64,000 bases of DNA, from assembly GCF_004138485.1 (NCBI RefSeq), contig NZ_ML142848.1, forward strand, positions 248,001 through 312,000, read 5' to 3'. The notes below the pieces were generated by a model. That model ran no database searches. It saw nothing but the letters and a program-made list of their open reading frames with translations, and was not told the origin of the DNA. The stretch's first letter is position 1. Each line of letters opens with the position of its first letter. Origin of the DNA: Peristeroidobacter soli. GTDB taxonomy: Bacteria; Pseudomonadota; Gammaproteobacteria; Steroidobacterales; Steroidobacteraceae. Below, one piece after another: positions 646 through 50,724 of the stretch. The translations under genes and the position numbers were made by a program.

Positions 646-2076
646 TTATGAATTGAAAGTGGCGACGCTGTGCCTGGGCCAGCGCTGGGCCCAGGGCAAC
701 GCGGCTTCGAGCTCGAACGCCAGCGTGAGCAACACGTCTTCTTGCGCGCGATCCGCGGCAAACATGCTGCCGATGGGCAACCCTTCGCTGCTCTGGAACA
801 GCGGCAACGAAATGGCCGGCGTACCCGCCATGTTTTGCAGCGGCGTGTACGCGATCCAGTCGAACATCGTCGACATCAGCTGTTCCATCGGCACCGCCGG
901 CCCATAGGTGCCGAGCAGCGGCGGCGGTGCGTTCGTCACCGGCGACAGAACAACATCGAAGCGCGAGAAGAACTCATTGAGCTGAATCGGCAGCCGTGCG
1001 ATCTGTTGATACGCGCGCTCCAGTGCCGTCGTCGGCAATCCTTCGGCACGCTTGCCCAGCCCGATGGTCCACGGCTCGATTGCATCCTCCAGCCGGCCGC
1101 CGCCCAACAGCGCGCGAGTCGCATCGACACAGTCCGCGGCCAGGTGCGACCAGATGTTTTCGAACGAATCGAGAAAGGCATGACCGTCGATGGGCCAGGA
1201 AGTCCGTTCGACCTTGTGCCCAAGACTCGCGCACAGATCCGCGGTGGATGCGATTGCCCGAGCGACGTCCGCGTGCGGGACATTCCCTCGCAAGCCATGT
1301 TCGATCACTGCGATACGCAGGCGACGTGACGAAGGACCAGTCACAACAGAGCGTTTTGAATCGTAGTGAGCCGCGGCGAAGCCCCACGCAACGTCACGAA
1401 CACTGCGTGAATGCAGACTGTCCGCGACCAGCAAATCTTCGACGAGGTGACGGGCGCGCACGCGAACCGTGCTGTCGCGTCCGGGTTTCAGTCCGACCAC
1501 GCCACAGCATGACGACGGCAAGCGAATCGAACCGCCGCCGTCACTGCCGTGCGCGAGTGGCACGAGCCCGGCTGCGATAGCAGCGACGGCGCCACCGCTC
1601 GATCCGCCCGGTGAATGCTCGAGCGACCACGGATTGCGCGTCGTCGGTCCCGCGAGCGGCTCGGTCGACGCCAACAATCCAAACTCCGGCATCGAAGACT
1701 TGCCGAGCGCGACCAACCCGGCCTGCTGCATGCGTTGCACGTACGGATAGCCATGTTGAATGGCCTTGCGCGTCCGGCTGCGTGAACAGGACGTCGTCGG
1801 CATGCCGGGATAATCCAGCGAATCTTTCGGCAGCCACGGCACACCGCGCATCGTGCCGCCGCTTTCGCGCAGCGCTCGAGCTTCAGCGCGAGCCAGAGCG
1901 GGATCGTAATGACTCAAGGCACGCACGGTCGGATCGAGCGCGTCGATGCGCAGAATCGCGGCCTCCGTCAGTGCCTCGACCGGCAGCTCGCCAGCGCGGA
2001 CGAGTCGTGCCTGATCGTGCGCATCCAGCTTGCCGAGCGCCAGCGCATCGGACAATGAAACTTCGCGGATCGTCAT
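646..2076 (-). CDS. amidase signature family enzyme
   Basis: A 476-residue amidase of the Ser-cisSer-Lys class. The catalytic lysine lies in WLPKDS (about residue 84), the glycine/serine loop is SPGGSSGG (about 155-162), and the nucleophile serine is in DGGGSIRLPSS (about 183). These enzymes hydrolyse amide bonds of small amides, aryl-acylamides or peptide amides; the substrate cannot be read from sequence. The start is the ATG at 2074-2076, whose A is shared with the TGA stop of the upstream permease (TGATG), so translation is coupled. The frame stays open far upstream, but that part is antisense-like shadow of the permease. Being coupled to an amino-acid permease suggests intracellular hydrolysis of an imported amide. 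It could also be annotated GatA-like, but no gatB/gatC is near. Confidence 0.9.
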   Translation of the reverse strand: MTIREVSLSDALALGKLDAHDQARLVRAGELPVEALTEAAILRIDALDPTVRALSHYDPALARAEARALRESGGTMRGVPWLPKDSLDYPGMPTTSCSRSRTRKAIQHGYPYVQRMQQAGLVALGKSSMPEFGLLASTEPLAGPTTRNPWSLEHSPGGSSGGAVAAIAAGLVPLAHGSDGGGSIRLPSSCCGVVGLKPGRDSTVRVRARHLVEDLLVADSLHSRSVRDVAWGFAAAHYDSKRSVVTGPSSRRLRIAVIEHGLRGNVPHADVARAIASTADLCASLGHKVERTSWPIDGHAFLDSFENIWSHLAADCVDATRALLGGGRLEDAIEPWTIGLGKRAEGLPTTALERAYQQIARLPIQLNEFFSRFDVVLSPVTNAPPPLLGTYGPAVPMEQLMSTMFDWIAYTPLQNMAGTPAISLPLFQSSEGLPIGSMFAADRAQEDVLLTLAFELEAALPWAQRWPRHSVATFNS

Positions 2077-41701: not shown

Positions 41702-44700
41702 ATGCTCCGTCGCATCGTCGCGCTGTGTGTCCGCTGCCGCGTTCTGGTCGTGGCCACTGCCCTGCTGCTGGCGGCCTACGGCCTGTTCATCGCTCAGCGC
41801 GCGAAGCTCGACGTCTTTCCGGAGTTCGCGCCACCGCAAATCGTCGTGCAAACGGAAGCACCGGGCTTGTCCGCCGAAGCGGTCGAGACGCTGGTGACGC
41901 GCCCGATCGAGTACAGCCTGAATGGCACGCCCGCGCTGGAGAACATCTACTCGCAATCCATCCAGGGACTCTCGGTCGTCACGCTGGTTTTCGAAGACGA
42001 CGCCGACATCTATCGAGTGCGCCAGCTGACCGCCGAACGTCTCGCGCAGCTCGGCAGCACCCTTCCCACCGGCGTTCACACGCCTGCCATGGGCGCGCTC
42101 GCATCGTCCACCAGCATGGTGCTGTCGATCGGCCTCACCTCCGAACATCACTCGCCGATGGAACTGCGCACGATGGCCGACTGGACCGTGCGACAGCGAT
42201 TGCTCGGCGTTCCTGGCGTCGCACGCGTGGAGACATTCGGCGGCGAGATCCGGCAATTGCAGATCCAGCTCCTGCCGGATCGCATGATGCTGTATGGATT
42301 GTCGATCGATGAGGTCGTCGCGGCCGCGAGCAGATCCACTGGCGTCCGAGGCGCTGGGTTCATCGAGACCGACAATCAACGCATCACGCTACGCACTGAA
42401 GGACAGTCCCTCTCCGCGGCCGCCCTGGCCGAAGCCGTGGTTGCACAACATGGCACCACGAGCGTGCGACTGCGCGACGTCGCGAACGTCGTCGATGGGC
42501 CTGAGCCGAAGATCGGCGATGCGCTGGTCATGGGCCAGCCCGGCGTCATCATGAACATCCATGGCCAGTACGGCGCGAACACGCGGGATGTGACGATTGC
42601 GGTCGAAGCGGCGCTTGCCCAGCTGCGGCCGATTCTGAACGCCGAACGAGTCACGCTGCATCCGGCGCTGTTCCGCCCCGCCAATTTCATCGAGACTTCG
42701 ATTCGCAACATCACCACCGCGCTGTTGATCGGCGGCGCGCTGGTGATCGTGGTGCTGCTGTTCTTCCTGGCCAATCTTCGCAGCGCCTTCATCGCGATTG
42801 CCACGATCCCCCTGTCCCTGCTGATGGCACTGGTGGCCTACGAGCATTTCGGCGCATCGATCAACACCATCACGATCGGTGGCTTTGCCATCGCCATCGG
42901 CGAAGTCGTCGACGATGCCATCATCGGGCTGGAAAACGTATGGCGACGCCTGCGCGAGAACCGGGCGAGCGCCGAGCCGAAGCCATTCGATACTGTGGTC
43001 ATCGATGCGACGCTCGAAGTACGCAGCCCCATCGTGTATGCGACCTTCATCGTCGTCGCCGTGTTCTGGCCCGTGCTCATGATGTCGGGCATCAACGGCA
43101 GACTGTTCGCGCCGCTGGCCGTGTCGTTCGTCCTGGCCGCCATCGCTTCGCTCATCGTCGCGATCACGTTGACGCCGGCGCTGTGCAGCCTGCTGCTCGC
43201 GAATACGGATGCGCGGGAGCCCGGCTATATCGAACGATTGAAACACTGGCACCGACGCGTTCTGGAGCGGATCGACCGGCGCCCCCGACTCATCATCGGC
43301 GGCACTGCCGTCGTATGCCTCGCTGCCTTGTGCGCACTGCCCTTCATGGGCGGAGAGTTCCTGCCGGAGTTCAAGGAAGGTCATTACGTTCTGCGAGTGA
43401 TGACCGCTCCAGGAACTTCGGTCGACGCGGGGCTCCACTTGGGTGGGCGGATCACGCAGGAGCTGTTGCAGAACCCGCACATACAATCGGTATCCCAACA
43501 GCTCGGGCGCGCCGAACAGGGTGAAGACACGGCGGGCCCTGAGTTCAGCGAATTTCACATCGAGCTGAAGCGGCTCTCCGGCGAGGACGAGGAACAGGTC
43601 CAGGAGGAGATCCGGGCGGCGCTGAAAACGTTTCCCGGCATCAGCTTTGCCGTCACGCCGTTCCTGGAAGAACGCATCGAAGAGATTCTCACCGGCGGCC
43701 GCGGCGAGCTGGTGATCAATATCTTCGGCGAAGACCTCGACGTTCTGGACCGCGTCGCTCAGCAAATCAGGAATGTCGTGGCTACGGTGCCGGGCGCGGC
43801 CGACGTACTGTCGCAAACCCAAGCCGGCGCGCCCGAACTCGAAGTCATCTTGCGCCCGGATCGTCTGCGCCAATACGGATTCGCACCGTTGGAGGTGCTC
43901 GAAGCCATCCAATTCGCTTACCAAGGCGTCGTGGTGGCGCAGACCAACGATAACAACCGGGTGTTCGAGGTAGCGGTCATCCTCGAACCTGGCAGTCGCC
44001 GGGATCCGGAGGCGATTGGCGGAATGTCGATACGGAACGCCGCTGGCACGACGCTGCCTCTGCGGGAGCTGGCGAACATCGAAAACACGTCAGGCCGCTA
44101 CGTGATCATGCACGAGGGCACGCAACGGCGTCAGCAGGTCACTTCAGACGTCGTTGGCCGCGACTCGAGCTCGTTCGCGCAGGCCGTTCAGGAGAAGCTC
44201 CGTTCCGACATCGCGTTGCCACCGGATGTTTCGGTGGTCGTCGGCGGCGCGGAGCAAGCCCGGGTGACGGCGCAGAACGAATTGCTGTTGCATTCCGCGT
44301 TCGTGGTGATCGTGATCGTCATGCTTCTGTCGATGGTGTTCGCCAACCGGCGCAACCTGCTGCTCGTGATGGCCAACATTCCGTTTGCATTGGCCGGCGG
44401 CGTGCTCATCCTGCTGCTCACCGGCGGCGCGCTGTCGATCGGCGCCATGGTCGGCTTCATCTCGCTGTTCGGCATCAGCATGCGCAATTCCATCCTCATG
44501 ATCTCCCACTACGAGGAACTGGTGACTCGTGAAGGCAGACCCTGGGGCCTGGCGACCGCCCTGCAGGGCGCGAGCGAACGCCTCGTGCCCATCGTCATGA
44601 CCGCATTGGTCGTCGCCCTCGGCCTGCTGCCCATCGCGGTCGGCAGCGAAGAGGCCGGCAAGGAAATCGAAGGCCCGATGGCCATCGTCATCCTGGGCGG

Positions 44701-44806
44701 TCTGGTGACCAGCATGCTGTTGAACCTGCTGGTCCTGCCGGCGCTGGCCGTCCGGTTCGGACGGTTCGAGCTTCAGAAGGCTTCGTCGAACGCAACCTCG
44801 CCCTGA
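41702..44806 (+). CDS. heavy-metal-type RND efflux pump, divergent clade
   Basis: 1034 residues with RND topology (two sets of six helices and two periplasmic loops). It belongs to the heavy-metal branch by overall order (RAKLDVFPEFAPPQIVVQTEAPGLS near TM1; FLPEFKEGHYVLRVMTAPGTS in the second loop) but the TM4 relay is IAIGEVVDDAIIGLENVWRRLRE, unlike the CusA or CzcA versions here, and it lacks the CusA methionine trio. Metal is therefore unclear. It follows the adaptor gene by 2 bp. Its last 34 bp overlap the 3' end of convergent nrdB. Confidence 0.92.
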   Translation: MLRRIVALCVRCRVLVVATALLLAAYGLFIAQRAKLDVFPEFAPPQIVVQTEAPGLSAEAVETLVTRPIEYSLNGTPALENIYSQSIQGLSVVTLVFEDDADIYRVRQLTAERLAQLGSTLPTGVHTPAMGALASSTSMVLSIGLTSEHHSPMELRTMADWTVRQRLLGVPGVARVETFGGEIRQLQIQLLPDRMMLYGLSIDEVVAAASRSTGVRGAGFIETDNQRITLRTEGQSLSAAALAEAVVAQHGTTSVRLRDVANVVDGPEPKIGDALVMGQPGVIMNIHGQYGANTRDVTIAVEAALAQLRPILNAERVTLHPALFRPANFIETSIRNITTALLIGGALVIVVLLFFLANLRSAFIAIATIPLSLLMALVAYEHFGASINTITIGGFAIAIGEVVDDAIIGLENVWRRLRENRASAEPKPFDTVVIDATLEVRSPIVYATFIVVAVFWPVLMMSGINGRLFAPLAVSFVLAAIASLIVAITLTPALCSLLLANTDAREPGYIERLKHWHRRVLERIDRRPRLIIGGTAVVCLAALCALPFMGGEFLPEFKEGHYVLRVMTAPGTSVDAGLHLGGRITQELLQNPHIQSVSQQLGRAEQGEDTAGPEFSEFHIELKRLSGEDEEQVQEEIRAALKTFPGISFAVTPFLEERIEEILTGGRGELVINIFGEDLDVLDRVAQQIRNVVATVPGAADVLSQTQAGAPELEVILRPDRLRQYGFAPLEVLEAIQFAYQGVVVAQTNDNNRVFEVAVILEPGSRRDPEAIGGMSIRNAAGTTLPLRELANIENTSGRYVIMHEGTQRRQQVTSDVVGRDSSSFAQAVQEKLRSDIALPPDVSVVVGGAEQARVTAQNELLLHSAFVVIVIVMLLSMVFANRRNLLLVMANIPFALAGGVLILLLTGGALSIGAMVGFISLFGISMRNSILMISHYEELVTREGRPWGLATALQGASERLVPIVMTALVVALGLLPIAVGSEEAGKEIEGPMAIVILGGLVTSMLLNLLVLPALAVRFGRFELQKASSNATSP

Positions 44807-45795
44807 ACGCCCACTTGATACGCCGACACGCGGCGTTCGAAGAAGTTGGTCAGCTCCTGCACATCCTGCAGTTCCATGAACGCGAAGGGATTGCGCACGT
44901 TGTAACGCGTCGGCAGATGCAGCACCCGCAAGCGCTGATCGGCAACGTATTCGAGGTACTGCCGCATCTCGCGACGAGTCAGACCGACGACTCCGCCCGA
45001 CAGCACATCCTCAGCGAACGCAGCCTCGCACTCGACCGCTTCCTCGATCATGGCCTGCACCTGCCGCGCCCAGGAAGCGTCGAAAAGATGTGGCTCTTCC
45101 CGGCGCACGGTGTTGATGACTTCGAATGCGAACGCCATGTGCGCACTCTCGTCACGGAACACCCAGTTCGTGCCGGCGGCCAAGCCGGGCAGCAGTCCGC
45201 GGGAGCGCAGAAAATAGACGTAGGCGAACGCACCGAAGAAGAACAAGCCCTCGATGCAGCTGGCAAAGCACGTCAGATTCAGCAGGAAACGACGCTTGTC
45301 GTCATCGCTCGCGATCCGCTGCAGGCCGAACACCTCATCGGTCCACTTCTGACAGAACTCGGCCTTGCGCCGGATCGACGGAATGTTCTCGATGGCGGCG
45401 AACGCCTGCGCGCGCCGTTGCTGATCCGGAACGTAGTTGTCGAGCAGCGTGAGATAGAACTGGATGTGCAGCGCCTCCTCGAACAGCTGGCGCGACAGAT
45501 ACATGCGCGCCTCGGGCGAATTGATGTGCCGGTACAGGCTGATGACCAGGTTGTTGGAGACGATCGAATCGCCGGTGGCGAAGAACGCCACCAGCCGCTC
45601 GATCAGATGCCGGTCGGCCGGCGTCATTCGCTGCGACAGATGACTCAGATCGATCTGGAAGTCGATCTCCTCGACCGTCCAGGTGTTCTTGATCGCAGCC
45701 CGGTACATTTCGTAGAAGCGCGGATGGCGCATCGGACGCAAGGTCAGATCGAAGCCCGAATCCAGCAACGAAGCCCGGCGTGAAGTCGAAGTCAT
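44773..45795 (-). CDS. nrdB: class Ia ribonucleotide reductase small (radical) subunit
   Basis: 340 residues from ATG 45793-45795, 8 bp after nrdA. Diiron ligands and radical Tyr are recognisable: EEALHIQFY holds Glu, His and the Tyr four residues after His; CIEGLFFFGAF holds the next Glu; FRDESAHMAFAFEV holds Glu and His. So it should carry a normal tyrosyl radical. With NrdA it reduces ribonucleotides to deoxyribonucleotides aerobically. The C-terminus (VQGEVAFDEAF) would carry the NrdA-docking tail. Its 3' end overlaps the convergent RND gene by 34 bp, which is odd and suggests that the neighbour was placed there later. Confidence 0.94.
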   Translation of the reverse strand: MTSTSRRASLLDSGFDLTLRPMRHPRFYEMYRAAIKNTWTVEEIDFQIDLSHLSQRMTPADRHLIERLVAFFATGDSIVSNNLVISLYRHINSPEARMYLSRQLFEEALHIQFYLTLLDNYVPDQQRRAQAFAAIENIPSIRRKAEFCQKWTDEVFGLQRIASDDDKRRFLLNLTCFASCIEGLFFFGAFAYVYFLRSRGLLPGLAAGTNWVFRDESAHMAFAFEVINTVRREEPHLFDASWARQVQAMIEEAVECEAAFAEDVLSGGVVGLTRREMRQYLEYVADQRLRVLHLPTRYNVRNPFAFMELQDVQELTNFFERRVSAYQVGVQGEVAFDEAF

Positions 45796-45803
45796 GACGG
45801 CGC

Positions 45804-48176
45804 TCACTGGCAGGCCTCGCACATTTCAGGATTTTCCAAGGAACACACCACGGCGGCCGTGTCGCTCACCTGCACCGTCGTCTTCGCGATGTTGGTCGCC
45901 GGACGCGAACGCAAGTAGTAGGTCGTCTTGATGCCGCTCTTCCACGCATACATGTACATGCTGGAGAGCTGACCGATCGTGGGATTGGCAATGAACAGGT
46001 TCAACGACTGGCTCTGATCGATGTACGCGCCACGCGCCGCCGCCAGATCGATCAGCCCTCGCATGGGCACCTCCCAAGCCGTGCGATAGATGGCGCGCAG
46101 CGCCTCGGGAATATCCGCAATGCCCTGCACCGAGCCATCGGCGAGCTTGATCTGATTGCGAATCTCGTCGGTCCACAATCCGAGCTGCTTCAACTCCTCC
46201 ACCAGATACCGGTTCACCTGGAGGAAATCGCCAGACAGGGTCTCGCGCTTGAACAGGTTGGAGACCTGCGGCTCGATGCACTCGTAACAACCGGCGATCG
46301 AGGCGATCGTGGCGGTCGGCGCGATGGCGATCAGCAAACTGTTACGCAGGCCGTGCGCTTTGATTTCATCGCGCAACGTATTCCACTGCGCCACATCCGA
46401 CGGCGTGACGCCCCAGCTGTCGAACTGCAACTCACCCTCCGCTGCGCGCGTTTCCTTGAACGTATCGTGCGGTCCCAGCTCTCGGGCCAGCTCCATCGAT
46501 GTCCGCAGGGCGTGGAAGTAGACCGTCTCGGCAATGCGCGTCGACATCTGCTTCGCTTGCGAGCTGTCGAACGCCAGCCGCAGCTGAAAGAACACATCCT
46601 GCAGGCCCATCACGCCGAGGCCGACCGGACGCCAGCGCATGTTCGAGGCGCGCGCCGTGGCGATCGGATAGAAGTTCAGATCGATGACGCGATCCAACTG
46701 CCGCACGGCCGTCTGCACCGTCTGCGCCAGCTTGTCGAAATCGAAGGCGCCGTCGATCACATGACGGCCCAGATTGATGGAGCCGAGATTGCAGACCGCC
46801 GTCTCGCCCTCGCTCGTCACCTCGAGAATCTCGGTGCACAGATTCGACAGGTGAATCGTATTGCCGGCACGCGCGGTTTGATTGCCCGCACGGTTGCACT
46901 TGTCCTTGAAGGTCATCCAGCCGTTGCCGGTCTGCGCCAGCGTGCGCATCATGCGAGCATACAAGTCGCGTGCACGAACGGACTTCCGCGCCAGTCCTTG
47001 CGCCTCGGCCTGGGCATAGGCCGCATCGAACGCCTCGCCCCACAGATCCGGCAACTGCGGCACGTCCTTCGGATCGAACAGCGACCACATTTCATCCGCT
47101 TCCACCCGGCGCATGAACAGATCGCAGATCCAGTTCGCGAGGTTGATGTGATGAGTGCGACGGCCTTCGTCGCCCGTGTTGTCGCGAAGCTCCAGAAACG
47201 CTTCGATATCGGCGTGCCACGGCTCCAGATAAACACAAGCCGCGCCCTTCCGCTTACCACCTTGATTCACGGCCGCGACCGACGAGTCGAGCGTCTTCAA
47301 CCACGGCACGATGCCGTTCGACAGGCCATTGGTGGCGCGAATCAACGACCCTTCGGAGCGCACGCGATGCCAGGCCACGCCGATGCCGCCGGAGAATTTC
47401 GACAGCAGCGCGATGTCCTTGTAACGGTCATAGATGGATTCGAGCGAATCGCCCGGCGAATCGAGCAGGAAGCAGCTGGACAGTTGCTCGTGACGCGTAC
47501 CGGCGTTGAACAGCGTCGGTGAGCTGGGAATGTAGTCGAGCGACGAGAACACCTGATACAGGTCGATCGCCTCGTGCACGCTGGTGCTCAGCGCGCAGGC
47601 GATGCGCATCCAGAACTGCTGTGGCGTCTCCAGCGCGAGCCGGCGCGTCGGATGCTTCAGCAAGTAGCGGTCGTGCAGCGTCTTCAGGCCGAAGTACTCG
47701 AACTCGTGCGTGCGACGCGCATCGATGGCGTCGTTGAGCTTGCGAGCGTTACTCTCGACAAAGCTCATCACGCGCTCGTTGATCAGCCCGACATCGAAGC
47801 CGAGGCGAATCGATTGCGAGAACGAATAAACGCCCTGCCCCTGCACCTCCTTGTCGATGAAGCCCGCGAGCAGGCGGGCCGCGAGGCGCGAATATTCGGG
47901 CTCCTCGAACGTGAACGATGCAGCCGTGCGGATCGACAGCTCATCCAGCTCCCGCGTGGTCGCGCCATCGTACAAGCCGGCGATGGTCTTCAATGCGACG
48001 CGCATCGGATCGACCGCGTCGAGGCCATCGCCACAGCGACCGACCGCTCGCACGATCTTGTTCACATCGACGGCTTCGCGCTCGCCATTGCGCTTGGTGA
48101 CCCGCATCTGGGTGCGAGCCGAGTGTGGCGGCGTCAAATGAAAATCGGTCTGAGGAGAATCGAGCGTCGCCTGCAT
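45804..48176 (-). CDS. nrdA: class Ia ribonucleotide reductase large (catalytic) subunit
   Basis: 790 residues from ATG 48174-48176, with GGGGA eight bases upstream. An N-terminal ATP-cone (MRVTKRNGEREAVDVNKIVRAVGR, about residues 24-110) gives allosteric activity control. Catalytic residues: the redox Cys in QLSSCFLLDSPGDS, the N-x-C-x-E thiyl motif in HLSNLCTEILE, the partner Cys in AVCNLGSINLGRH, and C-terminal thioredoxin-reducible cysteines (PEMCEACQ). It is preceded by a promoter and a cobalamin riboswitch (48405-48605), so expression is likely lowered when B12 is plentiful. It is co-transcribed with nrdB. Confidence 0.95.
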   Translation of the reverse strand: MQATLDSPQTDFHLTPPHSARTQMRVTKRNGEREAVDVNKIVRAVGRCGDGLDAVDPMRVALKTIAGLYDGATTRELDELSIRTAASFTFEEPEYSRLAARLLAGFIDKEVQGQGVYSFSQSIRLGFDVGLINERVMSFVESNARKLNDAIDARRTHEFEYFGLKTLHDRYLLKHPTRRLALETPQQFWMRIACALSTSVHEAIDLYQVFSSLDYIPSSPTLFNAGTRHEQLSSCFLLDSPGDSLESIYDRYKDIALLSKFSGGIGVAWHRVRSEGSLIRATNGLSNGIVPWLKTLDSSVAAVNQGGKRKGAACVYLEPWHADIEAFLELRDNTGDEGRRTHHINLANWICDLFMRRVEADEMWSLFDPKDVPQLPDLWGEAFDAAYAQAEAQGLARKSVRARDLYARMMRTLAQTGNGWMTFKDKCNRAGNQTARAGNTIHLSNLCTEILEVTSEGETAVCNLGSINLGRHVIDGAFDFDKLAQTVQTAVRQLDRVIDLNFYPIATARASNMRWRPVGLGVMGLQDVFFQLRLAFDSSQAKQMSTRIAETVYFHALRTSMELARELGPHDTFKETRAAEGELQFDSWGVTPSDVAQWNTLRDEIKAHGLRNSLLIAIAPTATIASIAGCYECIEPQVSNLFKRETLSGDFLQVNRYLVEELKQLGLWTDEIRNQIKLADGSVQGIADIPEALRAIYRTAWEVPMRGLIDLAAARGAYIDQSQSLNLFIANPTIGQLSSMYMYAWKSGIKTTYYLRSRPATNIAKTTVQVSDTAAVVCSLENPEMCEACQ

Positions 48177-48261
48177 GTTCCTGGTCCCCGAAGCATGGGG
48201 CTCGCGACGCAAAGACAACGCACGGCCCTCGCGCTTTGCAAGCACGAACCGTTACGCGGCC

Positions 48262-48279
48262 TTCGCTCCCGCGAGCGAA
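48262..48279 (-). promoter_or_regulatory. hairpin in the nrdA leader (possible riboswitch expression platform)
   Basis: TTCGCTC - four bases - GAGCGAA forms a perfect 7-bp stem between the riboswitch aptamer and the nrdA start. No T-run follows on the minus strand, so it is not an obvious intrinsic terminator; it could take part in a fold that controls ribosome access. Confidence 0.3.
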
Positions 48280-48404
48280 ATCGGGTGATCGATGAGAGCG
48301 GGGAATAACGGAGCGCGGTCGCTTGCGAAGGCAGCGACGCGAACATCCGCCAGCCCTTTCCCACGAGAGCCCGACAGCCTGTGCGCGCCTGTGACGACGC
48401 GCGA

Positions 48405-48605
48405 TCTTCGGCAGGTCTTCGGGCTCATGGGCTGCGGCGAATGCCGACCTACTTGGCGCTGCTTCCCAGGCAAAAGCCCAGTGCTGTGTGCGCCGTTCGT
48501 TCCCAATTACCGCTGCGGGGCAGCTCCGGAATGCGCGCCAGGAGGGGCGCGGTCACCGGATTCCCTTTTCAGCCCACCCCACTGATCTTGGGGCAGGCAC
48601 CGAGG
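48405..48605 (-). ncRNA. cobalamin (B12) riboswitch upstream of nrdAB
   Basis: Reading the minus strand, the conserved blocks of the B12 aptamer occur in order: CGGTGCCTGCCCC at the 5' side (about 48590-48602), AAAAGGGAATCCGGTG (about 48555-48570), GCTGCCCCGCAGCGGTAA (about 48508-48525), CACTGGGC...CCTGGGAAG (about 48465-48485), and the B12 box AGCCCGAAGACCTGCC (48410-48425, consensus AGYCAGGAGACCTGCC). It begins right after a predicted start point and lies 230 bp ahead of nrdA with no gene between. Known function: adenosylcobalamin binding turns off the downstream gene. Confidence 0.9.
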
Positions 48606-48613
48606 ATGGGCAC

Positions 48614-48642
48614 AAGATATTGTGGTTTGCGCAAGGCGTCAA
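48614..48642 (-). promoter_or_regulatory. sigma-70 promoter for the riboswitch-nrdAB transcript
   Basis: TTGACG (48637-48642) and TATCTT (48614-48619) on the minus strand with exactly 17 bp between them. The -35 begins four bases after the oprC stop, and the predicted start point is just 5' of the riboswitch. Confidence 0.75.
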
Positions 48643-48645
48643 CGC

Positions 48646-50724
48646 TCATTTCAGATTCCAGACCAGTTTCAGCCAGCCGGTGCGGCCCGGCTCGTTGATC
48701 CGCACGGGATCCGCCGGATAGCCGAAGTCGGCGCTGCCGGCGAGGTTCAAATGCTCCGCGTAGGCCCGGTCGAGCAGATTGTCGATGCCGACCGAGAGAC
48801 TCATCTGCGTGGACAAGCGATAGGCACCATTCAGCGACAACACCGCGAAGCCGCCCGTCTCGCTCAGGTCGCGCCCCACCACGTTGCCCTGGCCGGGAGC
48901 CACGCGACCCTGACCATCGACGATTCGTAACAGCGCGCCGGCCGACCAGCGCGTGTTGTCGTAAGCCAGCGTGAAGCGCGCATCGAGCGGCGGAATCTGT
49001 GGCAATGCCGCTCCGGTATCGCGGTTCTCCGCCCAGGCATAAGCAACGGTGGCGCCGAGTTTCCATCGCGACAGCAGCCGGAACTCCACACCCGCTTCGC
49101 CGCCACGCACGTTGGCGTCTACCTGATCGACGCTCGACATCAAGCCCATCATCCCGCCGCTGCTGTAAGTGAACAGGATGAAGTCATCGATCCGTCCGGC
49201 GTACGCCGAGACCCATGCATCTATGTGGGGAGTCCGATACTGCAAACCGACGTCCAGCTGCGTGGTCTGCTCGGGATCGAGCGCGGAGAACGCATTCACC
49301 GAGCCCATCGGCCCCATGTCCGCCGAAAACAATTCCCAGTAGTCCGGCATTCGTTCGGCCCGGCCAACGCCCGCGAACCAGCTGATGGGCGCGTTACTCA
49401 CGTCATGTTCGTATCGAGCGAAACCATTGGCGAGCGTCTCTTTGCGAGTGTCGCCGGCGGTGGGATTTGGCATCGGCATCATGCCGCCGCTCATCTGTCG
49501 CTTGTCCGTGACTTCCGCGCGATCGGCACGCGCACCGAACACGGCGCGGCCGCTATCGTGCATTCGCCACGCGAGCTCGACGAACGCCCCCGTGTTGGAA
49601 AGATCCGCGTCGGTCTGCCAGGGCTGCAGTTCATAGGCTCCCCGCCCCATCGCGCTACGATCTCGGTGGCGGCTGTCTTGAGTATCGGCGCCCGCCGTGA
49701 CTTCCACGCTCGCGAGCCGCCACATCGCCGCAACCCTGCCGCCGGTGGTGCGCCGATCGACATTCGCCGCCATGGGCATCGGCATCGAGCTCATGGGATT
49801 CGGCTCGCGCAAGGTGTAGTTGTCCATGACGTGGTCGGCGTAGTTGTAGAAAACATTCGCCTTCACTTCCTTCAAGACCCCGGTGAGACCGGTCTTCTCG
49901 ATTCGCAGGCCATAGCTGGTGCGCTCGAACTGAGCGCCGTCCATGCCACGCCCCGCGTAACGTGCTTCGCCATCGCCAGCGCCGGCGGACAGCTCGAGCA
50001 GCGTGCCCTCTGACGGCGTCCAACCGAGCGCGGCGTCCGCGTTCCATTTCTGCCAGCTCGAGGGCACGCGATTGCCGTCGCCATCTTCATAGTCATCCGC
50101 TTCGGAACGATTGGCGCTCAAGCGCGCGTAGCCCTGGCTCGCACCGCCAACCGCGTCCAGCACCTGATCGTTGCGACCGTGCGATCCAGCCAAGGCATTG
50201 GCATTCACCCGCACTCCAGGCTGGTCGAATCGATTGGCGTTGGCATCGCGTTCGAAACGAATGGTGCCGGCGGACGCCCCCGGCCCCCACAGCACGGTCT
50301 GCGGCCCCTTGATGACGACCAGCCGGTCATAGGTCTCCGGCGACACGTACGAGAGCGGATTGTCCATGCGGGCGGGACAGGCGCCGGGCATCGCGCCGTC
50401 GTTGGTGAGAATATTGAGGCGCGAACCGAACATTCCTCGCAGCACCGGATCGCCGTTGGTACCACCGTTACGCACGGCGCTGAAGCCAGGAATGGTTTTC
50501 AGATAGTCCGCCCCGTCGCTGGCAGGCACCGGCTGGCGCGGCAGCTTGGGGTCGGTGATAAATGTGAGCGGCAACTTTGGCGCCACTCCCGTGACGACAA
50601 CGACGTCCAGCAAGTCATCGCCGGATGCCGCGCGATGCTCTACTTCCGCGGCACTCGCCACACCTGCGACCAAAGGCCCGACGACCACCAACCAACCCGC
50701 CAGCGACGCAGAGATCTCGCGCAC
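48646..50724 (-). CDS. oprC: TonB-dependent copper receptor, OprC type
   Basis: 692 residues. GTG 50722-50724 has GGGAG upstream. Signal peptide MREISASLAGWLVVVGPLVAGVASA, then a plug with the OprC-specific blocks DGADYLKTIPGFSAVRNGGTNGDPVL (in pieces), RGMFGSRLNILTNDGAMPGACPARMDNP and VIKGPQTVLWGPGASAGTIRFERD. CPARM is the Cys-x3-Met copper-binding motif known from Pseudomonas OprC, and Met-rich loops (NPMSSMPMPMAANVD, GGMMPMPNP) fit copper binding. The barrel ends WLKLVWNLK. It imports copper across the outer membrane, opposite in direction to the Cus system in the same window. Confidence 0.93.
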   Translation of the reverse strand: MREISASLAGWLVVVGPLVAGVASAAEVEHRAASGDDLLDVVVVTGVAPKLPLTFITDPKLPRQPVPASDGADYLKTIPGFSAVRNGGTNGDPVLRGMFGSRLNILTNDGAMPGACPARMDNPLSYVSPETYDRLVVIKGPQTVLWGPGASAGTIRFERDANANRFDQPGVRVNANALAGSHGRNDQVLDAVGGASQGYARLSANRSEADDYEDGDGNRVPSSWQKWNADAALGWTPSEGTLLELSAGAGDGEARYAGRGMDGAQFERTSYGLRIEKTGLTGVLKEVKANVFYNYADHVMDNYTLREPNPMSSMPMPMAANVDRRTTGGRVAAMWRLASVEVTAGADTQDSRHRDRSAMGRGAYELQPWQTDADLSNTGAFVELAWRMHDSGRAVFGARADRAEVTDKRQMSGGMMPMPNPTAGDTRKETLANGFARYEHDVSNAPISWFAGVGRAERMPDYWELFSADMGPMGSVNAFSALDPEQTTQLDVGLQYRTPHIDAWVSAYAGRIDDFILFTYSSGGMMGLMSSVDQVDANVRGGEAGVEFRLLSRWKLGATVAYAWAENRDTGAALPQIPPLDARFTLAYDNTRWSAGALLRIVDGQGRVAPGQGNVVGRDLSETGGFAVLSLNGAYRLSTQMSLSVGIDNLLDRAYAEHLNLAGSADFGYPADPVRINEPGRTGWLKLVWNLK

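Follow-up and report, generated by a model that had tools for sequence, protein, structure and literature searches.

A cobalamin riboswitch upstream of nrdAB

The window examined here is a 64-kb stretch of the Peristeroidobacter soli genome (contig NZ_ML142848.1, positions 248,001 to 312,000; family Steroidobacteraceae), which encodes on its minus strand the two subunits, NrdA and NrdB, of a ribonucleotide reductase (RNR) of class I type, preceded by a leader that contains a cobalamin (vitamin B12) riboswitch. The genes and the elements of the aptamer are as follows (positions in the window):

45804..48176, minus strand: nrdA, class I RNR large subunit with ATP-cone, 790 amino acids from the ATG at 48176 (start codon chosen in the analysis)
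44773..45822, minus strand: nrdB, radical-generating subunit with the E..H...Y motif kept
48393..48619, minus strand: cobalamin riboswitch aptamer, RF00174 at full length (cmscan, 106.2 bits)
48599..48606, minus strand: 5' strand of P1, UCCUCGGU (covariance-model alignment)
48513..48523, minus strand: L5 hairpin, CUGCCCCGCAG, conserved, with a loop expected to pair with L13
48410..48425, minus strand: B12 box, AGCCCGAAGACCTGCC
48405..48412, minus strand: 3' strand of P1, GCCGAAGA (covariance-model alignment)

RF00174 (Cobalamin) is the sole Rfam family matched at the gathering threshold in the whole window (cmscan); the match, at 48619-48393 on the minus strand, covers the complete model (positions 1-189 of 189) with 106.2 bits and an E-value of 1.4e-25, compared with a gathering score of 31.5 bits. 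The B12 box, the GGGAA..GGTG core and the L5 hairpin were all found in the order expected for a cobalamin riboswitch. A conserved B12 riboswitch in front of the class I reductase genes nrdAB is thereby confirmed. The original prediction, made from the DNA letters, had placed the aptamer blocks and the B12 box on the nrdAB strand before nrdA and had proposed the Rfam cobalamin model on the minus strand as a check, and both the placement and the check are borne out by a full-length match well above the gathering score; its coordinates, which run from the -35 box (48642) to the 3' end of P1 (48405), proved accurate.

NrdA scores 730.9 bits against TIGR02506 (cut-off 341.05), with ATP-cone, PF00317 and PF02867 domains, and 254.3 bits against the NrdE model TIGR04170, below the cut-off of 750 for that model. 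NrdB matches PF00268 with 262.9 bits, and no NCBIfam NrdB model exceeded its own cut-off for this protein; its E..H...Y motif, which we take to hold the radical tyrosine, retains that tyrosine. By these sequence criteria NrdAB is a class I (Ia) RNR and not of the NrdE type. The gene that follows nrdB is convergent, leaving an operon without nrdS, and a gene for a TonB-dependent copper receptor (48646-50724, minus strand) lies upstream on the same strand and ends at 48646. On its other side, nrdAB is flanked by a gene for a CusA/CzcA-type metal efflux pump (41702-44806, plus strand), such that the reductase genes sit between two metal-related transport genes.

Promoter and putative NrdR box

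Two further elements lie at the upstream end of the leader:

48614..48642, minus strand: sigma-70-type promoter TTGACG-17-TATCTT, directly past the TonB receptor stop codon
48610..48625, minus strand: NrdR-box-like palindrome, CCACAATATCTTGTGC, overlapping the -10 box (13/16 to the NrdR consensus)

Within 48100-48800 (701 bases), the only sigma-70-like site is the promoter at 48642-48614 (mean 0.0, standard deviation 0.2 in shuffles). For comparison, 79 leaders were collected (75 distinct, 52 after dereplication), and the pattern TTGACN-N16-18-TAYNNT recurs in the corresponding 190-nucleotide (nt) stretch of 47 of the 52 dereplicated leaders, with 0.02 expected in total; the promoter named in the original prediction is both unique in its surroundings and kept among relatives. 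If transcription begins 6-7 bases past the -10 box, the RNA would start at about P1 (48606).

NrdR-like boxes were scored against the NrdR consensus. Sites with a score of 13 occur 0.1 times per 64 kb in ten simulated sequences, and a box scoring at least 12 is present in 39/52 leaders (mean best score 12.5, versus 8.7 in shuffles). NrdR boxes near promoters are usually paired, 31-32 bp apart. Two boxes of at least 11 at a distance of 30-33 bp were identified in 27/52 leaders and in no shuffle; the window leader has one clear box (13/16) and no good second one. The NrdR gene is present in the same genome, and a box of 15/16 lies upstream of the class II reductase gene nrdJ (L095:7743-7758). 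The palindrome over the -10 box is probably a binding site for NrdR, which would thereby set nrdAB transcription.

Class II reductase and B12 genes in the same genome

The genome (9.37 Mb in 17 contigs, listed as 100% complete and 4.03% contaminated) encodes two large reductase subunits: NrdA in the window and a class II enzyme elsewhere. The latter, NrdJ, is a 744-amino-acid open reading frame (ORF) that scores 560.1 bits against TIGR02504 (NrdJ_Z; cut-off 399.95) and 233.2 bits against TIGR02506 (cut-off 341.05), so that the nrdJ gene predicted to exist elsewhere in this genome has been located. Directly after it lies a 238-amino-acid ORF with a TSCPD domain, and the two presumably resemble the split NrdJab of Pseudomonas aeruginosa. 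NrdD was searched for in the genome and not found.

CbiC/CobH, which is needed in both routes of corrin synthesis, was not found in this genome and was found in only 7/200 genomes of the family; because of this, the bacterium probably imports B12. Six other cobalamin riboswitches were identified in the genome. They precede CbtA-CobW; a CobD-like gene that scores 284.5 bits (cut-off 290.55); a receptor resembling BtuB (315.4 bits, below its cut-off of 599.7), accompanied by transporter genes; a large frame tentatively read as CobN-like; a TonB receptor of siderophore type; and an ORF similar to only part of MetE. CobW, CbtA, the CobD-like gene and large frames read as CobN-like lie near riboswitches (L090, L092, L093) though CbiC was not found. 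The riboswitch before the MetE-like ORF (1278-1509, minus strand; ORF L090:369-1241) precedes a frame that matches only MetE residues ~91-195; the MetE catalytic domain was not found in the genome.

Riboswitch and class II enzyme among relatives

The distribution of the riboswitch was assessed in named relatives, namely the best 80 of 592 confirmed NrdA loci, five of which are also contigs of the family sample described below. Cmscan of 74 of these loci gave 58 positives and 16 negatives, one of the negatives (L014) being cut by a contig end; the six remaining loci each hold a B12 box of 15/16 and were counted as riboswitch-bearing, giving 64 loci with a riboswitch, 15 without, and one cut off. 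A second large subunit was detected with PF02867 in 78/80 of the genomes and assigned to a class by its best tblastn match. Riboswitch and class II enzyme occur together in 63 relatives and are both missing from 14, with two discordant and one not judged; class II is thus present in 63/64 riboswitch-bearing relatives (Fisher test 1.8e-13, over rows that are not independent). The 14 comprise 13 Stenotrophomonas-titled genomes in which the second enzyme is class I, and L078, in which a second enzyme was not found. For L116 this class I enzyme was identified as PRK09209. Riboswitch and class II are both present in L049, titled Stenotrophomonas koreensis.

On a quick NrdA tree, with support from the Shimodaira-Hasegawa-like approximate likelihood ratio test (SH-aLRT) only, two riboswitch losses and four changes in class II presence were mapped; L057 excepted, class II is absent from the lineages with these losses or was not found in them. 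A third loss lies in the family of the window (L114). The pairing of riboswitch and nrdAB recurs in the family of the window, in Rhodanobacteraceae and in Lysobacteraceae. Riboswitch presence tracks class II presence across the 80 named relatives, via few independent events. The original prediction had proposed a B12 isozyme switch in which NrdJ makes deoxynucleotides when B12 is available and nrdAB is off; the discovery of nrdJ and the co-occurrence of riboswitch and class II support this part, and the regulatory effect itself is one that we infer.

Three further loci deserve mention. L072 (titled as an Acidobacteriota metagenome-assembled genome) has an nrdA 73% identical to that of the window, a riboswitch, and a different class II enzyme, of PRK06556 type, which may reflect transfer or mis-binning. 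In the class II NrdJ of L118:808-4167 (Rehaibacterium) and in that of L204, the catalytic domain holds an intein-like insertion. One Lysobacter locus has two cobalamin riboswitches, the second of which lies at L039:8109-8324 and scores 68.1 bits.

Within the family of the window, the NrdA model matches a reductase in 190/200 genomes, and 23 exceed the NrdA cut-off by tally (21 among the matches listed). The matches under the cut-off score like class II, which suggests that class I is absent from most such genomes. The family sample provided 20 nrdA loci besides that of the window, with a riboswitch upstream on the same strand in 15. Of the other five, L110, L111, L113 and L115 have too little upstream sequence, and L114 (G019) has a short leader with promoter and NrdR-like box and no aptamer, in a genome (74% complete) in which the class II gene was not found. 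In G014 (83% complete) the class II gene was not found and the leader is cut off. A second, class II-like match (by score for most) is present in 12/16 of the riboswitch-bearing family genomes, including that of the window. In L112 (G166 C60) the riboswitch lies ~50 nt from a matched nrdA frame that lacks the first ~200 residues, which may reflect a short nrdA or an assembly fault.

Leaders that resemble riboswitch fossils

Five riboswitch-less named leaders and that of L114 were inspected by eye. L066, L068 and L057 lack the aptamer core but keep the promoter, an NrdR-like box, the P13a hairpin (see below) and a start that resembles P1/P2; L066 and L068 additionally retain a stretch resembling the B12 box. 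The remnant in L114 is similar (promoter, NrdR-like box and pieces of the leader, aptamer core missing), in L081 the promoter and NrdR-like box alone are clear, and the upstream region of L078 is different. A permissive cmscan of five Stenotrophomonas-titled loci gave no Cobalamin match up to an E-value of 10. Judged by eye alone, the leaders in two of the three loss lineages look like riboswitch fossils. In L057 the contig with the riboswitch-less nrdA also has a class II gene, which implies that the aptamer disappeared while the enzyme was still present or that the enzyme was regained. Given more independent losses, such fossil-like leaders, where the genome lacks a class II gene, would amount to a natural deletion experiment for the isozyme switch.

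Expression platform

Between the aptamer and nrdA, the leader contains the following elements:

48352..48371, minus strand: P13/L13-type hairpin (P13a), whose GUGGG loop is complementary to the CCCGC of L5, counting one G-U pair
48261..48280, minus strand: second L13-like hairpin (P13b), loop with GCGGG
48134..48346, minus strand: possible 70-codon upstream ORF that begins past P13a and overlaps the nrdA start out of frame

A P13a-type hairpin is present in 74/79 leaders (70/75 distinct), ~53-58 nt past the start of the B12 box in the examples shown. The loops are mostly GCGG, GGGG or CGUGGGA and could pair with L5 (CCCCGC), and the stems covary (GCUUCC/GGAAGC, GUCUUC/GAAGAC, CCUUUC/GAAAGG, GGUUCU/GGAACU). 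L13-like hairpins number 1.39 per leader, versus 0.70 in shuffles, and another 37 hairpins, whose loop is G(C/U)GGG, begin 120-159 nt past the B12 box (79 leaders). The window leader (48607-48150) folds at -218.4 kcal/mol, versus -200.45 kcal/mol in shuffles (z -3.0; 2/100 shuffles as stable), and in its predicted ligand-free minimum-energy fold the P13a region pairs with the B12 box.

Two other leaders of this genome, ahead of the metE remnant and of a TonB receptor, likewise hold both P13a and P13b. The leader of the siderophore-type TonB receptor (L091:10001-10220; C3:671523-671742; minus strand) resembles that of nrdA, with promoter, P13a and P13b; its palindrome at the -10 box is symmetric but changed, CGCAATATCTTGCG.

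Several candidate elements were considered and rejected. A start codon past P13a recurs in relatives, with peptides, lengths and frames that are not conserved, arguing against a leader peptide. A pairing of P13a with the B12-box side, which would act as an anti-aptamer, reaches -23.6 kcal/mol in the window leader, but across the 79 leaders own partners score scarcely better than swapped ones (-16.7 vs -16.2). For a Rho-type C-rich tract, the C-G bubble is 10.9 vs 10.0 in shuffles (standard deviation 3.9; 78 leaders), with no clear excess.

P13a and P13b may compete for the single L5 loop, giving a two-step output (early near P13a, and later at P13b, closer to the ribosome site of nrdA) in addition to NrdR control. 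We regard this as a rather doubtful proposal; if true, one aptamer would drive two-step control.

Proposed regulation and alternatives

It is very probable that a cobamide-sensing riboswitch shuts nrdAB off when adenosylcobalamin (AdoCbl) is plentiful and NrdJ takes over, that the class I enzyme is made upon B12 shortage, and that NrdR control is layered on top. The RF00174 element would form the 5' leader of the nrdAB mRNA. With plentiful AdoCbl the aptamer would fold, its L5 loop would pair with the L13 loop of P13a, and nrdAB would be shut down, leaving the reduction of ribonucleotides to the AdoCbl-dependent class II NrdJ. When the vitamin, probably imported, is scarce, the leader would open and the B12-independent class I enzyme would be made. 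NrdR, as a repressor on the palindrome over the -10 box, would set transcription in addition, and the step at the expression platform would be a translation block with or without Rho termination. We infer B12 as the ligand, repression as the sign, NrdR binding, B12 import and the platform step.

Several observations weigh against this reading. One named relative, L012 (G069/G202), has a riboswitch and the class II gene was not found; conversely, L057 (titled Stenotrophomonas sp. ISL-67) has NrdJ without a riboswitch. Four family genomes that are 62-85% complete (G006, G125, G069 and G090) have the riboswitch before nrdA, and the class II gene was not found in them. The NrdA tree holds only two independent pairs, with which a sign test cannot reach 0.05, so that the losses are too few for any significance test. 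In the expression platform, single P13a hairpins beat 95% of shuffles in only 9/52 leaders, such hairpins being common in GC-rich sequence. P13a lies ~175 nt upstream of the nrdA start, and a translation block by simple masking of the ribosome site, which fits only L109, was rejected as a general mechanism. An intrinsic terminator was likewise rejected, since the one weak site (0.4 expected) is not convincing.

Alternatively, oxygen could be the main cue, with NrdJ used at low oxygen, nrdAB under aerobic conditions, NrdR as the switch and the riboswitch for fine-tuning only. NrdR-like boxes at nrdAB and upstream of nrdJ (15/16) are consistent with this, as is P. aeruginosa, in which NrdR controls all RNR classes and one box lies over the -10 (PMC4409342). 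However, with only 23/200 family genomes above the NrdA cut-off, class I seems absent in most, and the aptamer has been retained intact over long times; we therefore consider oxygen as the main cue unlikely.

It is highly improbable that a mobile B12-response module landed before nrdAB, such that the aptamer is intact and its position bears no link to NrdJ. A TonB-dependent receptor gene elsewhere in this genome has a very similar leader, which indicates that the module does move, and the four incomplete family genomes with a riboswitch in which the class II gene was not found would fit such a history. Nevertheless, the riboswitch-nrdAB pairing recurs in three families, and the riboswitch tracks class II in the named relatives. 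The least probable alternative is that the riboswitch activates nrdAB with B12 or senses another cobamide: sequence cannot give sign or ligand, and several corrinoids act on cobalamin riboswitches (PMC9600662), yet the nrd precedents are OFF switches (PMC4991794, PMC3848588, PMC545781) and the aptamer is lost where NrdJ is missing, as an OFF switch would predict.

Repression of nrdAB by B12, with NrdJ taking over, would couple the synthesis of DNA precursors to the supply of B12 in a family of Gammaproteobacteria in which class II-like enzymes seem to predominate and class I to be exceptional. Beyond what had been predicted, the analysis adds the NrdR-type palindrome on the promoter, the failure to find CbiC, and the common occurrence of this arrangement across related families. 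Its interest lies in the paired losses, the fossil-like leaders and the second hairpin.

Comparison with known systems

Streptomyces coelicolor has NrdR sites on both RNR operons, and the B12 riboswitch of its nrdABS operon was reportedly described by Borovok et al. in 2006. As in P. soli, a cobalamin riboswitch precedes class Ia nrdAB and a class II NrdJ is encoded elsewhere (PMC4991794), which matches the Streptomyces precedent that the original prediction had invoked for B12 control of a B12-independent reductase. S. coelicolor differs in belonging to another phylum; in P. soli there is no nrdS in the operon, CbiC was not found, and the leader has two L13-like hairpins. In delta-proteobacteria a B12-independent reductase is also under a B12 element beside NrdJ, following the same logic, although it is the class III NrdDG there and the class I NrdAB here (PMC545781). 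P. aeruginosa likewise combines class Ia with a split class II enzyme and has NrdR boxes, one of them over the -10; unlike P. soli, it makes B12, and its B12 response is described as riboswitch-independent (PMC4409342, PMC5962746).

The relevant passages of PMC8123684, PMC2667541, PMC545781, PMC6208644 and PMC4465626 describe no nrdAB riboswitch of the Xanthomonadales or Steroidobacter families, and those of PMC2864759 describe none on nrd genes. PMC3766115 includes an isozyme class among cobalamin regulons, and "nrd" is absent from its text. The logic of an nrdAB riboswitch is already known from Streptomyces and Propionibacterium acnes, and the pair of NrdR box and riboswitch is not new.

In P. 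acnes, a single nrd-box lies over the nrdAB promoter and a cobalamin riboswitch is in the leader, and most nrdAB transcription is reported to end before the first gene (PMC3848588). P. acnes is an actinobacterium in which genes for cobalamin synthesis are expressed and nrdDG, too, carries a riboswitch (PMC3848588), whereas NrdD and CbiC were not found in P. soli. Both systems nonetheless combine an NrdR box, putative in P. soli, with a cobalamin riboswitch on nrdAB, such that the same pairing on one promoter is found in two distant groups.
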